DNA of 64,000 nt from Paenibacillus sp. AN1007 (lineage in GTDB: Bacteria; Bacillota; Bacilli; Paenibacillales; Paenibacillaceae). Every line of letters starts with the position of its first letter. The stretch's first letter is position 1. Made by a program: the position numbers and the translations under genes. Below the pieces are notes generated by a model, which saw only the letters and a program-made list of their open reading frames with translations, was not told the origin of the DNA and did no database searches. Shown here piece by piece: positions 31,154-52,799 of this stretch. The stretch covers positions 1,637,501 through 1,701,500 of the forward strand of contig NZ_CP159992.1 of the NCBI RefSeq assembly GCF_040702995.1. The letters are read 5' to 3'.

Positions 31154-32119
31154 ATGGTTGTGTTTACTCAAATAGGTGAAATTGCTGAACCGATTCCAGT
31201 CGTACTGCCTGAAACCAAGTGTGATGCCTTATATCAGCTGTTTACATCAAATCCGAATCTGGAAGGTGCAGCGGTTACAGGAAAAAAAGGCATATCATTA
31301 ATGATGCGAACCCGGTTCTTTCAACAGATCGGTACACAATACGGTTACAACCTGTATATGGGGCGCCCTGTAAAGCTGCTTATGAACGTGAATGCTCTGG
31401 TCGTGGATTACTCGGAACAGATTACAGATGTAAGTGTCGCAGCGATGAAGCGCGAGGAGGCTGACCTGTATGATCTGGTTCTGGTAACATCTGGGGAACG
31501 ATTCCACGGAGCGGTAAGTATCCGGCGGCTGCTTCTGGCAGTTGCAGATGTTCGAGCTGAAATGGCCAGCTTTATGAATCCGCTAACTGGACTTCCCGGT
31601 AATCGAATTATTGATGATCGATTAGTTCAGGTACTTCAGCAGGACCAGTTCAGTGTTCTCTACATTGACCTGGATCAGTTCAAATCATATAACGATAGTT
31701 ACGGATTCAAAATGGGAGACGACCTTATACAGGCCACAGCCGGTTTACTGCGTGAGCATTTTGGTGTATCGGAAGGTTTTCTAGGCCATATTGGTGGCGA
31801 TGATTTTATCGTGATTTTGAACCATCACCAGTACAAACAGGTCTGTGAAGAGGTGATTTCCCGGTTTGAGAAGTTGAAGCAGAGCTTCTACAACGAACAG
31901 GACTGGAGCAACCAGTATGTGATAGGCGAAGGTCGATCTGGATTGAACAGACCTATTCCTTTGGTATCTGTATCAATTGCTGTAGTGACCAATCTCTATC
32001 AACGGTATGGTAACATCAATCAAATTGTACATGAAGCTGCAGGTGTGAAAAAAAGCTGTAAATCCATCAACGGCAGCATTATCTGTTCGAATGACATGAA
32101 AGTTCAAAAAGTTACCTAG
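31154..32119 (+). CDS. CBS-pair and GGDEF domain protein
   Basis: 321 residues. The N-terminal 135 residues look like a CBS-pair-type sensor (EPIPVVLPETKCDALYQLFTSNPNLEGAAVTGKKGISLMMR and LVTSGERFHGAVSIRRLLLA). Residues 142-300 are a GGDEF domain beginning NPLTGLPGNRIIDD. The active-site loop is GGDDF (214-218) instead of GGDEF or GGEEF, so diguanylate cyclase activity is uncertain. It has no membrane segment and stands alone after spo0A. ATG 31154 follows GGCGAGGAG. The 220-base region before it holds no clear promoter beyond AT-rich sequence. Confidence 0.85.
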   Translation: MVVFTQIGEIAEPIPVVLPETKCDALYQLFTSNPNLEGAAVTGKKGISLMMRTRFFQQIGTQYGYNLYMGRPVKLLMNVNALVVDYSEQITDVSVAAMKREEADLYDLVLVTSGERFHGAVSIRRLLLAVADVRAEMASFMNPLTGLPGNRIIDDRLVQVLQQDQFSVLYIDLDQFKSYNDSYGFKMGDDLIQATAGLLREHFGVSEGFLGHIGGDDFIVILNHHQYKQVCEEVISRFEKLKQSFYNEQDWSNQYVIGEGRSGLNRPIPLVSVSIAVVTNLYQRYGNINQIVHEAAGVKKSCKSINGSIICSNDMKVQKVT

Positions 32120-32367: not shown

Positions 32368-32404
32368 TTGCACAAATTAACATATTAATTGATAATGATT
32401 ATCA
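32368..32404 (+). promoter_or_regulatory. Promoter with perfect Fur operator, AraC-SBP copy 1
   Basis: -35 TTGCAC (32368-32373), 17-base spacer, -10 GATAAT (32391-32396). The perfect 7-1-7 Fur operator TGATAATGATTATCA (32390-32404) covers the -10, so iron-loaded Fur would block it. The ATG lies 55 bases downstream. Confidence 0.85.
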
Positions 32405-32458: not shown

Positions 32459-34411
32459 ATGTGGAATGAATATTATATACTCTGGAATTATGCCGCAGTG
32501 AATATAGCAGATATTCGTTATGTGGAATTTAGAGCGTATGAAGAGATGAAATATAAATTTCCATCACATACCTTTATTCTCACTTTTCAGGGTAATGCTG
32601 GAGTGATAATTGATAATGTGAATTATGAAGTGAATCGGATTTATGTTCTCCATGGGGGAAAGGGGAGTGAATTGGTTATTCAAGCAGGAGAAGCCGGCTT
32701 ACGATTGTATTACTTGATGTATAGGGCCGAACTGCCTAGAGCGGGAAGAGATTATCTGCAAAAGATAATGGATCGTACCAATCCGTTTCAGATGAATTTT
32801 GGCCTTTCACCAGACAAGCCAACCATGTTATATGAGCAGTTGAAACAGATGCATATTTTGTGGAATTCAAAAAAAATGGATCAACATTTTCAGGCCAAAA
32901 GTTTGTTCTTTTCCTTTGTGGAGCAGATATTATCACAGATTTCTTCTGGATCAAAACACAATCGGAGTGCTAAGGAACAGGCCAACAAAATCATGAAAAT
33001 TATAGAATCTTCTTACACACAGCCACTCACGCTTCATGCTTTGGCAGAAATGGTAAACACCAGTCCAAGAAGTTTGTCACGCAAGTTTAAGCAGTCGGTT
33101 GGTACCAGTCCCATCGATTACCTTATCCAGTTTCGTTTATTCAAAGCCAAAGAGATGCTGCTGGAAACCGACGCCACACTGGATGAAATTGCGGCAGGGA
33201 TTGGTTATCCGGATGGTTATTATTTAGGACGTATGTTCAAGAAACATACAGGGCTTTCTCCTATGCAATTCAAGAAAAAATCCTCCATTCCTCTGCATTG
33301 GCCAGATTTGACATCAACCTTGTCTGGAAATGATATTTCCAAAGGTACAGGTAGGAAGTATGTTTATGGTGATGATGATAATCATTATCAATATAAACAT
33401 GGAGGATTCATTCATATGAACAGACAAACAAGAACCGGAATGTTGCTTAGTATGCTTCTAATTCTTACTTTATTGGTCAGTGCCTGCTCAGCAAGTGGCG
33501 CCAATAGTATCGGGGGAGAACCATCAGGAAGCAATGGTTCCCAGACCAAAGTAACAGCGGAGAACCAAAGCAAGACATCTAAAGTACGCACGGTTTCAAC
33601 GATGAAGGGGAGTATCACCATCCCAGATGAACCTAAACGGATTGTGGTTGATCTGTATTTGGGAAGCCTTATTGCTTTGGGAATCAAGCCAGTGGGTACA
33701 CCCGAATTAAATCTCAAGAATCCTTATTTTATTGATTCGCTTGAAGGTGTTCAAAATATTGGGGAATATGAAACGATTTCTCTTGAAAAAGTGTTAGAAC
33801 TTGAACCCGATTTGATTGTGACAGGCAATCCTGAATTATATGACTCGTTTAGCAAAATAGCACCTACCCTTGTTATTCCTTATGGAGAATTCAAAAACAC
33901 TCACGAAGAAATCACCTATTTCGGTGAAGTGCTGAATAAAAAAGAAGAATCCAAAGCCTGGTTAGCTAATTATGATGCTAGAATTGCAGATGCCAAGAAG
34001 CGTGTCAGTGAAGCAATCGATGCATCTGCCGAAGTGTCGGTGATGCAGTTCAATGAAAAAGCTCCATTAGCCTTTGGTGATAATTTTGGTCGCGGAGGTC
34101 AGGCCGTTTATAGCGCACTTGGTTTGAATCCCCCTCCTGATAAAAAAGAGATTTTAATGAAGGAGCAGCTGGTAGAAGTTTCAGCAGAAGCGATCCCGGA
34201 ATTTGCTGGAGACTACATTATTCTAACGGCAGATGACCTAACGCTGGAAGATTTAAAAAACAAAGCAGTCTGGAGTTCTCTGGATGCAGTTAAGAACGAT
34301 CGTGTATTTATATGGAGCCAGGATCGTTCATGGTATTTTGACCCGATTGCAACATTAGATCAAACAGAGGAGCTGGCTGCTTGGTTTACAGAGATTTCGG
34401 GAAAAGAATAA
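32459..34411 (+). CDS. AraC-type regulator fused in frame to siderophore-binding lipoprotein, copy 1
   Basis: One uninterrupted 650-residue frame. Residues 1-150 are a cupin-like AraC sensor domain. Residues 172-273 are two helix-turn-helix units (LTLHALAEMVNTSPRSLSRKF and LDEIAAGIGYPDGYYLGRMFKKHTGLSP). Residues 274-319 form a linker whose segment DNHYQYKHGGF is the translation of a Fur operator and Shine-Dalgarno sequence. Met320 then begins a lipoprotein signal with lipobox VSAC (Cys343), followed by a FecB/FeuA-like iron-siderophore binding domain to residue 650. Domain order matches B. subtilis Btr, which senses bacillibactin in the cytoplasm but lacks such a signal. Whether the cell makes the fusion, the two parts, or both cannot be told from sequence. 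No permease genes adjoin. Confidence 0.85.
   Translation: MWNEYYILWNYAAVNIADIRYVEFRAYEEMKYKFPSHTFILTFQGNAGVIIDNVNYEVNRIYVLHGGKGSELVIQAGEAGLRLYYLMYRAELPRAGRDYLQKIMDRTNPFQMNFGLSPDKPTMLYEQLKQMHILWNSKKMDQHFQAKSLFFSFVEQILSQISSGSKHNRSAKEQANKIMKIIESSYTQPLTLHALAEMVNTSPRSLSRKFKQSVGTSPIDYLIQFRLFKAKEMLLETDATLDEIAAGIGYPDGYYLGRMFKKHTGLSPMQFKKKSSIPLHWPDLTSTLSGNDISKGTGRKYVYGDDDNHYQYKHGGFIHMNRQTRTGMLLSMLLILTLLVSACSASGANSIGGEPSGSNGSQTKVTAENQSKTSKVRTVSTMKGSITIPDEPKRIVVDLYLGSLIALGIKPVGTPELNLKNPYFIDSLEGVQNIGEYETISLEKVLELEPDLIVTGNPELYDSFSKIAPTLVIPYGEFKNTHEEITYFGEVLNKKEESKAWLANYDARIADAKKRVSEAIDASAEVSVMQFNEKAPLAFGDNFGRGGQAVYSALGLNPPPDKKEILMKEQLVEVSAEAIPEFAGDYIILTADDLTLEDLKNKAVWSSLDAVKNDRVFIWSQDRSWYFDPIATLDQTEELAAWFTEISGKE
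33336..33405 (+). promoter_or_regulatory. Internal promoter, Fur operator and Shine-Dalgarno inside copy 1
   Basis: TTTCCA (33336-33341), 17 bases, TATGTT (33359-33364) is a moderate promoter. The perfect Fur operator TGATAATCATTATCA (33376-33390) sits at the expected transcription start. GGAGG (33401-33405) precedes ATG 33416 by ten bases. All of it is also coding sequence of the upstream frame. Confidence 0.75.
33416..34411 (+). CDS. Iron-siderophore-binding lipoprotein, internal start in copy 1
   Basis: Alternative product of 331 residues starting at codon 320 of the larger frame. The signal peptide is MNRQTRTGMLLSMLLILTLL with lipobox VSAC at positions 21-24. A Ser/Gly-rich tether and a class III periplasmic-binding fold follow: ITIPDEPKRIVVDLYLGSLIALGIKPVGT, LEKVLELEPDLIVTGNPELYDSFSKIAPTLVIPYG and the late DRVFIWSQDRSWYFDPIATLDQ. 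Such proteins deliver ferric siderophores to FeuBC/FecCD-type permeases, not present nearby. The dedicated operator and ribosome binding site suggest it is also made alone when iron is scarce. Confidence 0.8.
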   Translation: MNRQTRTGMLLSMLLILTLLVSACSASGANSIGGEPSGSNGSQTKVTAENQSKTSKVRTVSTMKGSITIPDEPKRIVVDLYLGSLIALGIKPVGTPELNLKNPYFIDSLEGVQNIGEYETISLEKVLELEPDLIVTGNPELYDSFSKIAPTLVIPYGEFKNTHEEITYFGEVLNKKEESKAWLANYDARIADAKKRVSEAIDASAEVSVMQFNEKAPLAFGDNFGRGGQAVYSALGLNPPPDKKEILMKEQLVEVSAEAIPEFAGDYIILTADDLTLEDLKNKAVWSSLDAVKNDRVFIWSQDRSWYFDPIATLDQTEELAAWFTEISGKE

Positions 34412-34589: not shown

Positions 34590-34628
34590 TTGATAATGAA
34601 AATTATTATCACTTATAATTGGTATACT
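34590..34628 (+). promoter_or_regulatory. Promoter with Fur operator, AraC-SBP copy 2
   Basis: -35 TTGATA (34590-34595), 18 bases, -10 TATAAT (34614-34619), with a second extended -10 TGGTATACT (34620-34628). The spacer is filled by a 19-base Fur site (34592-34610) that differs from GATAATGATAATCATTATC at two bases. The ATG is about 100 bases downstream. Confidence 0.85.
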
Positions 34629-34721
34629 GTAGTGAACCGTTATTACTCACATTTTTTATCAATTTGGGAGAATGATGAGCTTGTAAACTCTATAGAGTGA
34701 GATAGGATTGGAGAGTATTTG

Positions 34722-36695
34722 ATGCAATTAGACGAACAGATGAAATGCTGGAATCAAGCCGCAGTTAAGGTTCTGGATATCCGTCGAATCGTTATGGAGA
34801 GAGGAGCACAACTGAGTTCCTATTTACTTCCGGCAAATGGATTTATATATACGATTCGGGGATCCGCTCAACTTCAATTAGATGGACAAGCATACCAGGC
34901 GGAGCCATTTTACATGCTTCATGGAGCGAAAGGATCTTCACTGGATATCCAAGCGAATGCAGATTTTGAATATATTCTGCTTTATTACAGAGCATTCCTT
35001 GCCTTTCCTCGTTTTCGAAAAAAAATGTTATTGGCACAGCCCCAGGCTGCACCGTTCTCCTTGCAGTATGGATTTACACCGAGTAATCCACTGGGGCTGT
35101 TACGATATCTTAGTGAGATGGAGAAAGCATGGGCGCAGTCAAGCCATTTAAATCTGCTTCATACTAAAAGTTTGTTTTATCAGTTCATTCATGAGTTGAT
35201 GGTTCAACTGTCTGCACAGGAGGTTCAAACAGAACTTGCGGACCCTGTAAAACAAACCATTCGTTACATCCAGAATCATTACAGAGAGCAGGTTACACTT
35301 GATTTGCTAGCAGAGCAATTTAATTACAGCTCTCGTCATTTATCCATGCGATTTAAAAGAAAGACGGGTTATAGTCCCATCGATTACTTAATTCAGACAC
35401 GAATCGGAAGGGCTAGGGAATTACTCGTGCGCTCTGATGCAAAGCTCGCTTCTATCGCAGCAGAGGTTGGTTATTCGGACGTGTACTACTTCAGCCGTAT
35501 TTTCAAGAAATATGTAGGCATGTCTCCAAGTCTATATCAAAAGAAGATGAGGGAAGAAGGACGAGCTGAAGATCGTCCATTGCATTTATCCGAATCGTCC
35601 ATTGGCTGGAACTTGAAGTCGAGCTATATTGATTATGATAATCATTATCAATATAAAGACGGAGGGTTTACATCGATGAAAAGAAAAAAAACAAGTTCCA
35701 GCATGATCATGATTGCATTGTTAAGTTTAACGATGCTTCTTGCGGCCTGTTCTTCGGGGACGGCAGCTAATCAATCTGCCGGTGCAGGAACGAGTACGAA
35801 TTCCAATAACAGTAATCAGGCAGTAACTTCAGAGACGGGAAGTCAAGTAAACAAAGATAATGAAACACGTACTATCTCAACAATAAAAGGTGATGTGATT
35901 GTTCCAGCTAATCCGGAACGGGTTGTTGTGCTGTATCTCCAGGGGGATGTGGTTGCACTCGGGGTTAAGCCAATCGCTACATCAGATGTATATGATGGGG
36001 CTGCTTACAAGGGTGAGCTTGAAGGTGTGGATTCACTCGGAACCTGGTTCGAACCAAACCCTGAAGCGATCATTGACCTTAATCCAGACCTGATTATTGT
36101 TCCGTCGGAAGAAACATATGACACTTTGAAAAATATCGCACCTACGGTGTATATTCCATATGAGAAAATGACAACAGAAGAACGGCTTCACAGCATAGCC
36201 AGCATCTTTGGCAAAGAAAAGGAAGCTGAAATCTTGATTAACAACCTGAACAGCAAGGTGGAAGATGGGAAGAAAAAACTTGCAGACGCAGGTATATTGG
36301 ATAAAACCATTTCTATTATCGAAGGTGGTTTGAAGAGCATGGTCGTTGTGGAAAGTAAGCAGTTTGGCCGTGGTTCTCAGGTAGTATATGAGTATCTGGA
36401 AATGAAAGCTCCTGAGGTGCTACAAGATAAAATTGATGTAATTTCAGAAGCGGCAGGTTCTACGATTTCTATGGAAGTACTTCCTGAATATATAGGTGAC
36501 TATGTGTTTCGCTCAGTTTATAAAGGGGCAGACAATCTGACGAACAACCCTATATGGCGCAGCATCCCGGCAGTAAAAGAAGGTCGGCTGATCGAGATTG
36601 ATTTTGATTTTTTCTATTATTCAGATGTATATTCAATCAATAAACAACTCGATTTTGTTGTAGATAAACTGTTAGCTGCTCCAAAAGTCCACTAA
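34722..36695 (+). CDS. AraC-type regulator fused in frame to siderophore-binding lipoprotein, copy 2
   Basis: 657 residues, a diverged paralogue of the preceding gene with the same plan. It has a cupin-like sensor domain (1-150), an AraC helix-turn-helix pair (VTLDLLAEQFNYSSRHLSMRF and LASIAAEVGYSDVYYFSRIFKKYVGMSP), and a linker containing DYDNHYQYKDGGF. A lipoprotein signal then begins at Met319 with lipobox LAAC (Cys343), followed by an iron-siderophore binding domain. No stop codon separates the two halves, and the internal ATG is the same number of bases from the frame start as in copy 1. ATG 34722 is chosen after TTGGAGAG; TTG one codon earlier is possible. A Btr-like siderophore sensor is the best family comparison. 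Confidence 0.85.
   Translation: MQLDEQMKCWNQAAVKVLDIRRIVMERGAQLSSYLLPANGFIYTIRGSAQLQLDGQAYQAEPFYMLHGAKGSSLDIQANADFEYILLYYRAFLAFPRFRKKMLLAQPQAAPFSLQYGFTPSNPLGLLRYLSEMEKAWAQSSHLNLLHTKSLFYQFIHELMVQLSAQEVQTELADPVKQTIRYIQNHYREQVTLDLLAEQFNYSSRHLSMRFKRKTGYSPIDYLIQTRIGRARELLVRSDAKLASIAAEVGYSDVYYFSRIFKKYVGMSPSLYQKKMREEGRAEDRPLHLSESSIGWNLKSSYIDYDNHYQYKDGGFTSMKRKKTSSSMIMIALLSLTMLLAACSSGTAANQSAGAGTSTNSNNSNQAVTSETGSQVNKDNETRTISTIKGDVIVPANPERVVVLYLQGDVVALGVKPIATSDVYDGAAYKGELEGVDSLGTWFEPNPEAIIDLNPDLIIVPSEETYDTLKNIAPTVYIPYEKMTTEERLHSIASIFGKEKEAEILINNLNSKVEDGKKKLADAGILDKTISIIEGGLKSMVVVESKQFGRGSQVVYEYLEMKAPEVLQDKIDVISEAAGSTISMEVLPEYIGDYVFRSVYKGADNLTNNPIWRSIPAVKEGRLIEIDFDFFYYSDVYSINKQLDFVVDKLLAAPKVH
35602..35665 (+). 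promoter_or_regulatory. Internal promoter, Fur operator and Shine-Dalgarno inside copy 2
   Basis: TTGGCT (35602-35607), 17 bases, TATATT (35625-35630) is a good sigma-A pair. The perfect Fur operator TGATAATCATTATCA (35636-35650) begins at the predicted start point. GGAGG (35661-35665) lies ten bases before ATG 35676. The operator plus seven following bases are identical to copy 1. Confidence 0.8.
35676..36695 (+). CDS. Iron-siderophore-binding lipoprotein, internal start in copy 2
   Basis: Alternative 339-residue product. A basic head MKRKKTSSS, a hydrophobic core and lipobox LAAC (Cys at position 25) form a classical lipoprotein signal. The Asn/Ser/Thr-rich tether is followed by the binding-protein fold: VIVPANPERVVVLYLQGDVVALGVKPIAT, EAIIDLNPDLIIVPSEETYDTLKNIAPTVYIPY and IEGGLKSMVVVESKQFGRGSQVVYEYL. 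It differs from copy 1 in the C-terminal lobe, so the two may bind different siderophores. Its own Fur-controlled promoter lies inside the regulator coding region. Confidence 0.8.
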   Translation: MKRKKTSSSMIMIALLSLTMLLAACSSGTAANQSAGAGTSTNSNNSNQAVTSETGSQVNKDNETRTISTIKGDVIVPANPERVVVLYLQGDVVALGVKPIATSDVYDGAAYKGELEGVDSLGTWFEPNPEAIIDLNPDLIIVPSEETYDTLKNIAPTVYIPYEKMTTEERLHSIASIFGKEKEAEILINNLNSKVEDGKKKLADAGILDKTISIIEGGLKSMVVVESKQFGRGSQVVYEYLEMKAPEVLQDKIDVISEAAGSTISMEVLPEYIGDYVFRSVYKGADNLTNNPIWRSIPAVKEGRLIEIDFDFFYYSDVYSINKQLDFVVDKLLAAPKVH

Positions 36696-36747: not shown

Positions 36748-36800
36748 TTGTAATTTCAACAGATTTCCATTAAACTTAAACGATAATGAGAATCAATATC
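36748..36800 (+). promoter_or_regulatory. Promoter and Fur operator of the reductase gene
   Basis: TTGTAA (36748-36753), 17 bases, TAAACT (36771-36776), then a 19-base Fur site (36782-36800) differing from GATAATGATAATCATTATC at two bases. It is the fifth Fur site in 4.4 kb. Confidence 0.75.
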
Positions 36801-36845
36801 ACAAAAATCAACATTTTGATTCGAATGGATGGAGGTCCTGTAGAG

Positions 36846-37883
36846 ATGAAACCAGAATTGGAGCTTTATGATGTAACGATAATCGGAGGCGGCCCTGCGG
36901 GCATGTACTCTGCTTTTTATAGCGGTATGCGGGATATGAAAACCAAATTGATTGAGGCACGCGACAGACTAGGAGGACGAATGCTGTTTTATCCAGAGAA
37001 AATGATCTGGGATGTCGGTGGCGTGACTCCAATCCTCTGTGAAGATCTGATTAAGCAGCTTGAACAGCAGGCTCGCACGTTCGATCCCACGCTGGTGTTC
37101 GGGCAGCAAATCGAAGGGTTCGAGCGTCAAGCTGACGGAACGATTCTGTTAACAGCTGCTGGCGGTGAACAGCACTGGACTCGAACGGTTATTATGGCTA
37201 TCGGATACGGTATTTATAAGATGGCCAAGCTGGAGCTTGATGGAGCAGATCGTTATGAAGTGTCGAATTTGCACTACACGGTGCAGGAGCTGGAGCCTTT
37301 CCGGGGCAAACGAGTTCTGATTTCTGGTGGAGGAGATTCAGCTGTAGACTGGGCAAACGAACTGGAGAGTCTGGCCCAGCAGGTAACGGTAGTGCATCGA
37401 CGGGATCACTTCGGCGGGCTGGAGCGGAACGTGCTGCGTATGAAGGAATCTTCGGTCGACGTACGAACTCCTTATGCAATTGAGAAGCTGCACAGTTTGA
37501 GCGGTGATATGATCGAACAGGTAACCATCACACACATGGAGACTGGAGAGACCAAGATGCTTGAAGTCGACGCAGTTATCGTTAATCATGGCATGAAGAG
37601 TGATTTTGGTCCGATCCGTGATTGGGGACTAGATCTGGGTGAATGGCATGTCAGCACAACGGATAGGCTGCAGACCAATATTCCAGGTGTTTTTGCTGCA
37701 GGTGATTTTGTGGATTATGGAAGTAAGCTGTATCTGATCGCAGGTACGTTTACAGATGCTGCACTTGCTGTTAATAGTGCCAAGCTGTATATGGACCCGG
37801 AGGCCGAGAAAGTGGCATATGTATCTTCTCATAACAGCCGCTTCAAAGAGAAAAACAAAGCGCTTGGCGTTGTGGAGGAGTAA
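36846..37883 (+). CDS. Ferredoxin/flavodoxin--NADP+ reductase, YcgT/YumC type
   Basis: 345 residues of the thioredoxin-reductase-like FNR family. The FAD site is [20 protein letters not shown], the NADPH site [20 protein letters not shown], and the C-terminal FAD block [40 protein letters not shown]. The CxxC redox pair of thioredoxin reductase is missing, which fits a ferredoxin reductase. B. subtilis ycgT is Fur-regulated, and this gene also has a Fur site, so it may supply electrons for iron release from siderophores. ATG 36846 follows GGAGG by ten bases; an upstream ATG at 36786 lies inside the operator. Confidence 0.88.
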
Positions 37884-52331: not shown

Positions 52332-52799
52332 ATGGAAGCACGGATCGATAAAATTAAGCAGCAACTACAGTCCCAAGGATATAAATTAACGCCCCAGCGG
52401 GAAGCCACCGTAAGAGTACTTTTAGAGAATGAAGAAGATCATCTGAGTGCAGAGGATGTTTTCATGCTCGTTAAAGAAAAGGCTCCCGAAATCGGTCTGG
52501 CAACCGTGTACCGTACCCTCGAACTGCTGAGTGAGCTGCATGTTGTAGAGAAAATCAACTTCGGCGACGGTGTAGCGCGTTATGATCTACGCGGAGATAC
52601 ATCCAAGCATCACCATCATCACTTAATCTGCGTACAGTGCGGAAGTATGGATGAAATTCGTGAGGACTGGCTTGGTCCGCTTGAAGAACGACTGGAGCGG
52701 GAATTTAACTTTTCGGTAGTAGATCACCGACTGGACTTTCATGGAATTTGTTATCGTTGTAAAGCTAAAAATGAACAAAAGCCCAAAGATGAAGAATAA
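52332..52799 (+). CDS. fur: Ferric uptake regulator Fur
   Basis: 155 residues. The winged-helix domain has QGYKLTPQREATVRVLLENEEDHLSAEDVFMLVKEKAPEIGLATVYRTLELL. The metal-binding part has DTSKHHHHHLICVQCGSMDEI, and a second Cys pair is GICYRCKA, giving the structural zinc site. The HHHHH run and position next to spoIIM match Fur rather than PerR or Zur. Its targets in this window are the five Fur operators between 32.3 and 36.8 kb. Ribosome binding site GGGGGAGGG. Confidence 0.95.
   Translation: MEARIDKIKQQLQSQGYKLTPQREATVRVLLENEEDHLSAEDVFMLVKEKAPEIGLATVYRTLELLSELHVVEKINFGDGVARYDLRGDTSKHHHHHLICVQCGSMDEIREDWLGPLEERLEREFNFSVVDHRLDFHGICYRCKAKNEQKPKDEE

Follow-up and report, generated by a model that had tools for sequence, protein, structure and literature searches.

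The window, meaning the whole 64,000-nucleotide stretch of Paenibacillus sp. AN1007 DNA that was analysed, contains two tandem open reading frames (copies 1 and 2; Table 1), each of which combines an AraC-type DNA-binding domain (HTH_18) with a Peripla_BP_2 siderophore-binding domain, as identified by Pfam searches. The two domains are separated by a linker of about 45 residues in both copies, followed by a signal peptide of the lipoprotein type whose lipobox is intact; lipobox residues A342 and C343 of copy 1 are invariant. Copy 1 shares the Peripla_BP_2 fold, the type II signal peptide and the lipobox cysteine with siderophore-binding lipoproteins, and the best solved relative of its binding domain is the iron-hydroxamate binding protein FhuD (3hxp, E 8e-44); since the closest solved relatives of this domain bind ferric hydroxamates, the ligand of copy 1 may reasonably be guessed to be a hydroxamate. 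In the AlphaFold model of the long form of copy 1, the AraC and binding domains are predicted confidently, residues 277-330 have pLDDT values below 50, and the signal peptide is predicted as a helix (residues 325-343) flanked by disordered stretches. The 6.64-Mb chromosome carries five full-length AraC-lipoprotein fusions. No permease gene was found between positions 31500 and 38000, around both copies. Behind copy 2, a ferredoxin/thioredoxin-reductase-like gene (Pyr_redox_2; 36786-37883) carries a Fur-like box at 36787 with two mismatches; an unfused AraC relative (L210) likewise has a Fur box and a reductase of similar type behind it, an arrangement that suggests a functional link. A Fur-family gene is located at 52374-52739 of the window, and the genome encodes five Fur-family proteins.

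Table 1. Features of the two AraC-lipoprotein genes and their start regions (window positions).
Feature	Position	Strand	Basis or detail
5' Fur box, copy 1, TGATAATGATTATCA	32390..32404	+	0 mismatches; upstream of long ORF
Long ORF, copy 1: AraC regulator, linker, lipoprotein signal peptide, siderophore-binding protein	32459..34411	+	650 aa
AraC-type DNA-binding domain (HTH_18), copy 1	33041..33277	+	residues 195-273; Pfam E 2.2e-22
Linker, copy 1, predicted disordered	33287..33415	+	residues about 277-319; AlphaFold, stop count
-35 element TTTCCA, putative internal promoter, copy 1	33336..33341	+	sequence; TTG spacing in clades
-10 element TATGTT, putative internal promoter, copy 1	33359..33364	+	predicted transcription start near 33371
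Junction Fur operator, copy 1, 21 bp	33370..33390	+	perfect 7-1-7 core 33376-33390; in-frame coding as DDDNHYQ
Shine-Dalgarno GGAGG, internal start, copy 1	33401..33405	+	sequence; Shine-Dalgarno score comparison
Nested short gene, siderophore-binding lipoprotein, copy 1	33416..34411	+	331 aa; ATG is residue 320 of long protein; conserved ATG spacing
Lipoprotein signal peptide, lipobox VSAC, copy 1	33416..33487	+	Cys is residue 343 of long protein
Peripla_BP_2 substrate-binding domain, copy 1	33656..34321	+	residues 400-621; Pfam E 5.1e-26
5' Fur box, copy 2, TGAAAATTATTATCA	34597..34611	+	1 mismatch; upstream of long ORF
Long ORF, copy 2, architecture as copy 1	34719..36695	+	658 aa; Pfam
Internal promoter, copy 2, TTGGCT-17-TATATT	35602..35630	+	generic promoter scan; pattern shared by ortholog group
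Junction Fur operator, copy 2	35630..35650	+	perfect core 35636-35650; Fur pattern scan
Shine-Dalgarno GGAGG and internal ATG (35676), copy 2	35661..35678	+	sequence

An earlier note on this DNA had read a complete iron-controlled start region into the regulator frame of copy 1; the promoter TTTCCA-17-TATGTT, the perfect 7-1-7 operator at 33376-33390, GGAGG and the ATG at 33416 are all found where it had placed them, and the entire region lies within the open 650-codon frame 32459-34411, where it is translated as YVYGDDDNHYQYKHGGFIHM. The operator core, TGATAATCATTATCA, fits the 7-1-7 model of the Fur operator (PMC11353095) without mismatch, and it overlaps a second 7-1-7 match that begins at 33370 with two mismatches; together they form a classical 21-bp two-dimer Fur box. 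Accordingly, the copy 1 junction contains the TGATAATNATTATCA inverted repeat, in two overlapping copies, that defines a Fur operator, and it matches 18 of the 19 letters of GATAATGATAATCATTATC. Such sites are concentrated here: the window contains 17 Fur-like sites at up to three mismatches compared to 4.7 in shuffled sequences, none of 100 shuffles reaching 17, and of the 12 perfect Fur sites in the 6.64-Mb genome three fall within the 3.3-kb region of both copies, whereas a reversed control pattern has no perfect site in the same genome. In 210-nt control stretches from open reading frames of the same family, a best match with at most one mismatch occurred in only 0.4%.

The junction operator is a general feature of related fusions. 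A main set of 158 distinct fused open reading frames from Paenibacillus and related genera, representing 31 clades at 60% identity, was compiled with a filter of at most three mismatches in the best junction match, which lost no signal-peptide fusion of the preceding sets; under this filter the junction Fur box is present in 158/158, always in the single codon phase T|GAT|AAT|NAT|TAT|CA, with no mismatch in 76, one in 66, two in 9 and three in 7 (at most one in 142/158). A shift of this phase to TGA|TAA would bring stop codons into the frame. The lipobox cysteine is likewise found in all 158. Two further fusions came to light after the main set was built: L217 (minus strand, 583-2493) has the signal peptide and is still fused, with no good in-phase junction Fur box, and in L219 signal peptide and Fur box are both degenerate. 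Two of the genome's own five fusions, L033 and L034 (G000:C1:5993969-5995885 and 5584516-5586402), have eroded junction Fur boxes (three mismatches) and have kept Shine-Dalgarno, ATG, lipobox and fusion; their control may have changed.

Conservation of the operator is visible at the DNA level. Across 31 clade representatives, its 14 letters (central base excluded) show a conservation of 0.93-0.97 regardless of codon position, whereas the linker around them is only 0.40-0.45 conserved, the level of near-random DNA. NAY codons (Asp, Asn, His, Tyr) in the operator end in T in 107/110 cases compared to 73.8 expected from the same genes (p 2e-15), a count slightly biased toward T-ending codons by locating the operator through its best match. 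This bias does not affect the synonymous-site comparison within ortholog groups, which the earlier note had proposed and which came out in its favor: the six operator codons show zero synonymous differences in three ortholog groups of 24, 21 and 15 sequences, compared to ORF-wide means of 0.38, 0.31 and 0.30, and only 1.4-2.2% of six-codon windows are as low. The letters G2 and C14 set Fur boxes apart from PerR and Zur boxes; at the junction operator they are conserved at 0.97 and 1.00 among the 31 clades.

These patterns bear on the proposal that DDDNHYQY has been kept as a protein motif and that T-rich codons have produced the resemblance to a Fur box as a side effect. The peptide is indeed similar in many clades, and a linker motif, SIV...RY, also recurs; yet the synonymous sites of the operator codons are frozen, and residues change where Fur tolerates it, mainly at the central base (H/D/Y, first codon base 0.65 conserved), and as IDY, while the DNA stays Fur-like. 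The operator-encoded stretch is moreover predicted to be disordered, which argues against a structural motif, and fusions that lack the signal peptide also lack the DDDNHYQY stretch. Frozen synonymous sites, the predicted disorder and the link with the signal peptide together led to the rejection of the protein-motif reading as very improbable.

The operator lies, in silico, directly 3' of a conserved TTGnnn-17-TATnnT promoter pattern. With 8 of 12 consensus letters, the copy 1 promoter falls below the threshold of a generic promoter scan, and the case for it is a comparative one. Since a scan at fixed positions gave further high offsets that overlapped the operator itself, the promoter was tested by spacing instead. 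A Tyr codon occurs 11-20 nt 5' of the operator, and in 24/24 clades that have this Tyr the next codon ends in T, the best-scoring Tyr codon having been used, a selection that qualifies this count; the residue after this Tyr varies (I, S, V, T, P, H, N), and its third base is always T, compared to 24% (213/884) of the codons that follow Tyr elsewhere. TTG is found exactly 17 bp upstream of TATnnT in 20/24 clades. The weak promoter call of the earlier note is thus backed by relatives, with TATnnT in 24/24 and TTG at 17 bp in 20/24 clades. The distance between promoter and operator varies by 3, 6 or 9 nt among clades and the 17-bp spacing of TTG and TATnnT holds, which looks like the pattern expected of a sigma-A promoter sliding within the reading frame.

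Downstream of the operator, an ATG follows after 25 nt in 22/31 clades and after 31 nt in four. The mean Shine-Dalgarno score at these junction ATGs is 4.73 compared to 2.50 at 447 other in-frame ATGs (p 3e-15); given the peptide, however, the Shine-Dalgarno is no stronger than under synonymous recoding (Fisher p 0.82), because the peptides GG, EGD and KGA force Shine-Dalgarno-like codons. The dual constraint that the earlier note had claimed for the start region is thus shown for the operator and the -10 element, but not for the Shine-Dalgarno taken by itself. L037, a lipoprotein gene of this genome that stands free rather than in a fusion, has the same Fur-25-ATG geometry. In silico, the short gene has the attributes of an in-frame nested gene: a shared frame, its own ribosome-binding site and start codon, and its own promoter. 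The earlier note had called such dual constraint unusual; the start region that it described is real, but far from being confined to this locus, the arrangement is the norm in the AraC-lipoprotein family of Paenibacillales.

Matches to this family occur in 50/60 genomes of the genus and 72/151 genomes of the order, and most among the matches listed are full-length frames without stops; one search had the junction peptide among its six seeds, and the genus, order and AraC-only searches were independent of that peptide. A search at E 1e-45 of 299 genomes that belong to the phylum but not to Paenibacillales found no fusions, only SBP-like matches, and a plasmid collection yielded mainly Btr-like and separate genes. 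For the AraC-only search, which was designed against circularity, the AraC part of copy 2 alone was the query against 40 genomes of the genus; 96 of its 101 best matches (E up to 6e-37) lie in open frames of at least 620 aa. The five unfused exceptions are three broken copies (L206, L208, L209), an AraC gene alone (L210) and a linker frameshift in a good genome (L207:592-2426), which unlinks AraC and lipoprotein, leaves both readable and leaves the internal Fur box, Shine-Dalgarno and ATG intact.

This survey bears on whether the short lipoprotein alone matters and the in-frame fusion is accidental, nothing selecting for a stop in the regulator tail. The otherwise near-random sequence of the linker and the unlinked halves of L207, with their intact internal start, would fit such an accident. 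Yet one representative each of the first 20 clades gave no in-frame stop in 1005 linker codons, about 1e-32 by chance at linker composition if neutral, compared to 40 and 121 stops in the other two frames; linker length changes only by whole codons within uninterrupted frames; and 96/101 AraC matches remain fused. An accidental fusion is accordingly quite improbable; judging from these reading frames, the fusion itself is under selection, and the linker resembles a free tether whose reading frame has to remain open and whose DNA also carries the short gene's promoter. In a tree of the binding domains, Btr-like domains separate (100/100 support); the other half contains fused and free lipoproteins intermingled, which forces at least six changes between fused and not fused. 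The fused domain is therefore a lipoprotein-type domain that has been linked to, or released from, its regulator on several occasions.

The operator is linked to the signal peptide. AraC-SBP fusions without a signal peptide, comprising 18 Btr-like proteins as well as L214 and L215, have no junction operator; it follows that the operator tracks the start of an exportable lipoprotein, present where one starts and absent otherwise, with L217 and L219 as the apparent exceptions. The Btr-like loci (L180-L199) adjoin a separate lipoprotein gene that is mostly preceded by a Fur-like site. L214 (L214:553-2451) and L215 (minus strand, 574-2451) belong to the present AraC subfamily and lack both signal peptide and junction Fur box; each is located beside a separate, divergent lipoprotein gene, a natural swap of architecture.

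Upstream of the long gene, a 5' Fur box at up to two mismatches was found in 118/158 fused genes; 5' and junction boxes occur together in 19/31 clades, and a junction box without a clear 5' box in 10/31. In the two window copies, Fur boxes at both start regions make it likely that the long and short starts share an iron signal. The earlier suggestion that one metal signal sets the levels of both products is thus plausible for these copies; it is not general, since 10/31 clades lack a clear 5' box. The same note had suggested that Fur at the junction could act as a roadblock for transcripts from the upstream promoter. Repressor roadblocks exist (PMC4132739), and in the 10/31 clades with no clear Fur box other than that at the junction a roadblock could give the long transcript iron control; the conserved promoter, Shine-Dalgarno and ATG at fixed spacing would, however, be superfluous for a roadblock alone. 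A roadblock as the main role of the junction operator is therefore unlikely; it can be an extra effect.

Taken together, the locus is best explained, with a probability of about 0.78, as a nested, in-frame, Fur-controlled lipoprotein gene that would give rise to a long and a short protein. The long gene, from 32459, would encode the AraC-type regulator, the disordered linker and the siderophore-binding lipoprotein; the short gene in its 3' half would encode the lipoprotein alone, from a sigma-A-type promoter (33336-33364), its own ribosome-binding site and the ATG at 33416, with the Fur operator (33370-33390) covering about +1 to +20. Iron-loaded Fur represses promoters that are overlapped by its box (PMC11353095). 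With plentiful iron, Fur would thus shut off the internal promoter; in the window copies it would probably do the same to the promoter that precedes the long gene. Under iron shortage both promoters would be on, the internal one yielding the lipoprotein alone and the upstream one the AraC-lipoprotein fusion. The short product would sit at the cell surface as a lipoprotein and capture a ferric siderophore; in the long product, the identical binding domain would be tied to a DNA-binding domain. Most likely, the long form acts as a sensor-activator that recognizes the ligand bound by its lipoprotein counterpart. It would thus be a single-gene equivalent of Btr and FeuA, a sensor and a lipoprotein encoded by separate genes; Btr senses ferric bacillibactin.

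The fusion could be either a cytosolic, Btr-like sensor of imported siderophore or inserted into the membrane via its signal peptide, as a tethered or cleaved regulator. In the latter version, the long form would be a membrane-tethered regulator or a self-cleaving polyprotein, with the signal peptide in the membrane, AraC on its inner side and the binding protein on its outer side; the lipoprotein may then be freed by signal peptidase II, AraC, left on a membrane stub, could perhaps be released by a site-2 protease, and export would report to the regulator. A folded AraC domain of 275 residues before the signal peptide would be an unusual Sec substrate, which counts against this version, whereas signal peptide and lipobox are intact in 158/158 fusions of the main set, the signal peptide is predicted as a helix (325-343) between disordered stretches, and site-2 proteases act on lipoprotein signal peptides (PMC10202637), all of which count for it. 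As a caveat, the short form needs the lipobox anyway, and its conservation is therefore no proof that the long form uses it. Membrane tethering or self-cleavage is thus possible but somewhat doubtful.

A regulated promoter, operator and ribosome-binding site kept in translated sequence over more than 30 diverged gene clades would be a clear-cut example of one stretch of DNA that carries two codes. The arrangement also suggests a compact way of keeping a regulator matched to its receptor: one binding domain, one gene. There is perhaps an even chance that this represents a widespread bacterial design, in which one open reading frame encodes a transcription activator together with its own exported ligand receptor, the receptor's full iron-regulated promoter is contained in the linker codons, and the same binding domain serves as intracellular or membrane-tethered sensor and as surface receptor. 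Standard annotation labels such genes as a single AraC or binding protein and so would overlook both their second product and their internal iron switch, in dozens of genomes with several copies each.

The components of this arrangement are known singly, as intragenic Fur sites, in-frame internal starts and AraC-SBP fusions. A search of open-access papers, whose silence is weak evidence, returned nothing relevant on AraC-lipoprotein fusions in Paenibacillus, and the papers searched contained no earlier description of the combination, a lipoprotein gene under Fur control that lies in frame within the gene of its own regulator and is kept over 31 clades. The closest known system is Btr (YbbB) with FeuA, which resembles the window genes in having the AraC domain N-terminal to a siderophore-binding domain within one protein, in its Fur regulation and in its linked, Fur-controlled lipoprotein; Btr is annotated as an AraC regulator with a FeuA-like domain, adjoining feuA (PMC3896406). 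In contrast to the window proteins, which have a signal peptide and lipobox between the two domains, Btr-like fusions have neither signal peptide nor junction Fur box, and their lipoprotein is a separate gene. The window proteins score 87.4 and 118 bits against the Btr model NF049932, through the AraC part only and below its cut-off of 900, and their SBP domains fall outside the Btr branch (100/100). FhuD/FeuA-type lipoproteins share Peripla_BP_2, the lipobox and, as in L037, the Fur box 25 nt before the ATG; here, however, promoter, operator and ribosome-binding site are translated within the coding sequence of the fused upstream regulator. AerR of Rhodobacter capsulatus is likewise made as long and short proteins from one frame via an internal start (PMC6199135); short AerR arises by internal translation initiation, whereas the short form here would also have a Fur-controlled promoter and carries a signal peptide that would send it to another compartment. 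Finally, ChIP-seq of Fur in Bacillus subtilis placed 29/70 putative sites within genes, most of them without regulatory effect and not described as promoters of nested genes (PMC6212828); in contrast to these, the site within the AraC-lipoprotein genes is kept across 31 clades together with promoter, Shine-Dalgarno and start codon.
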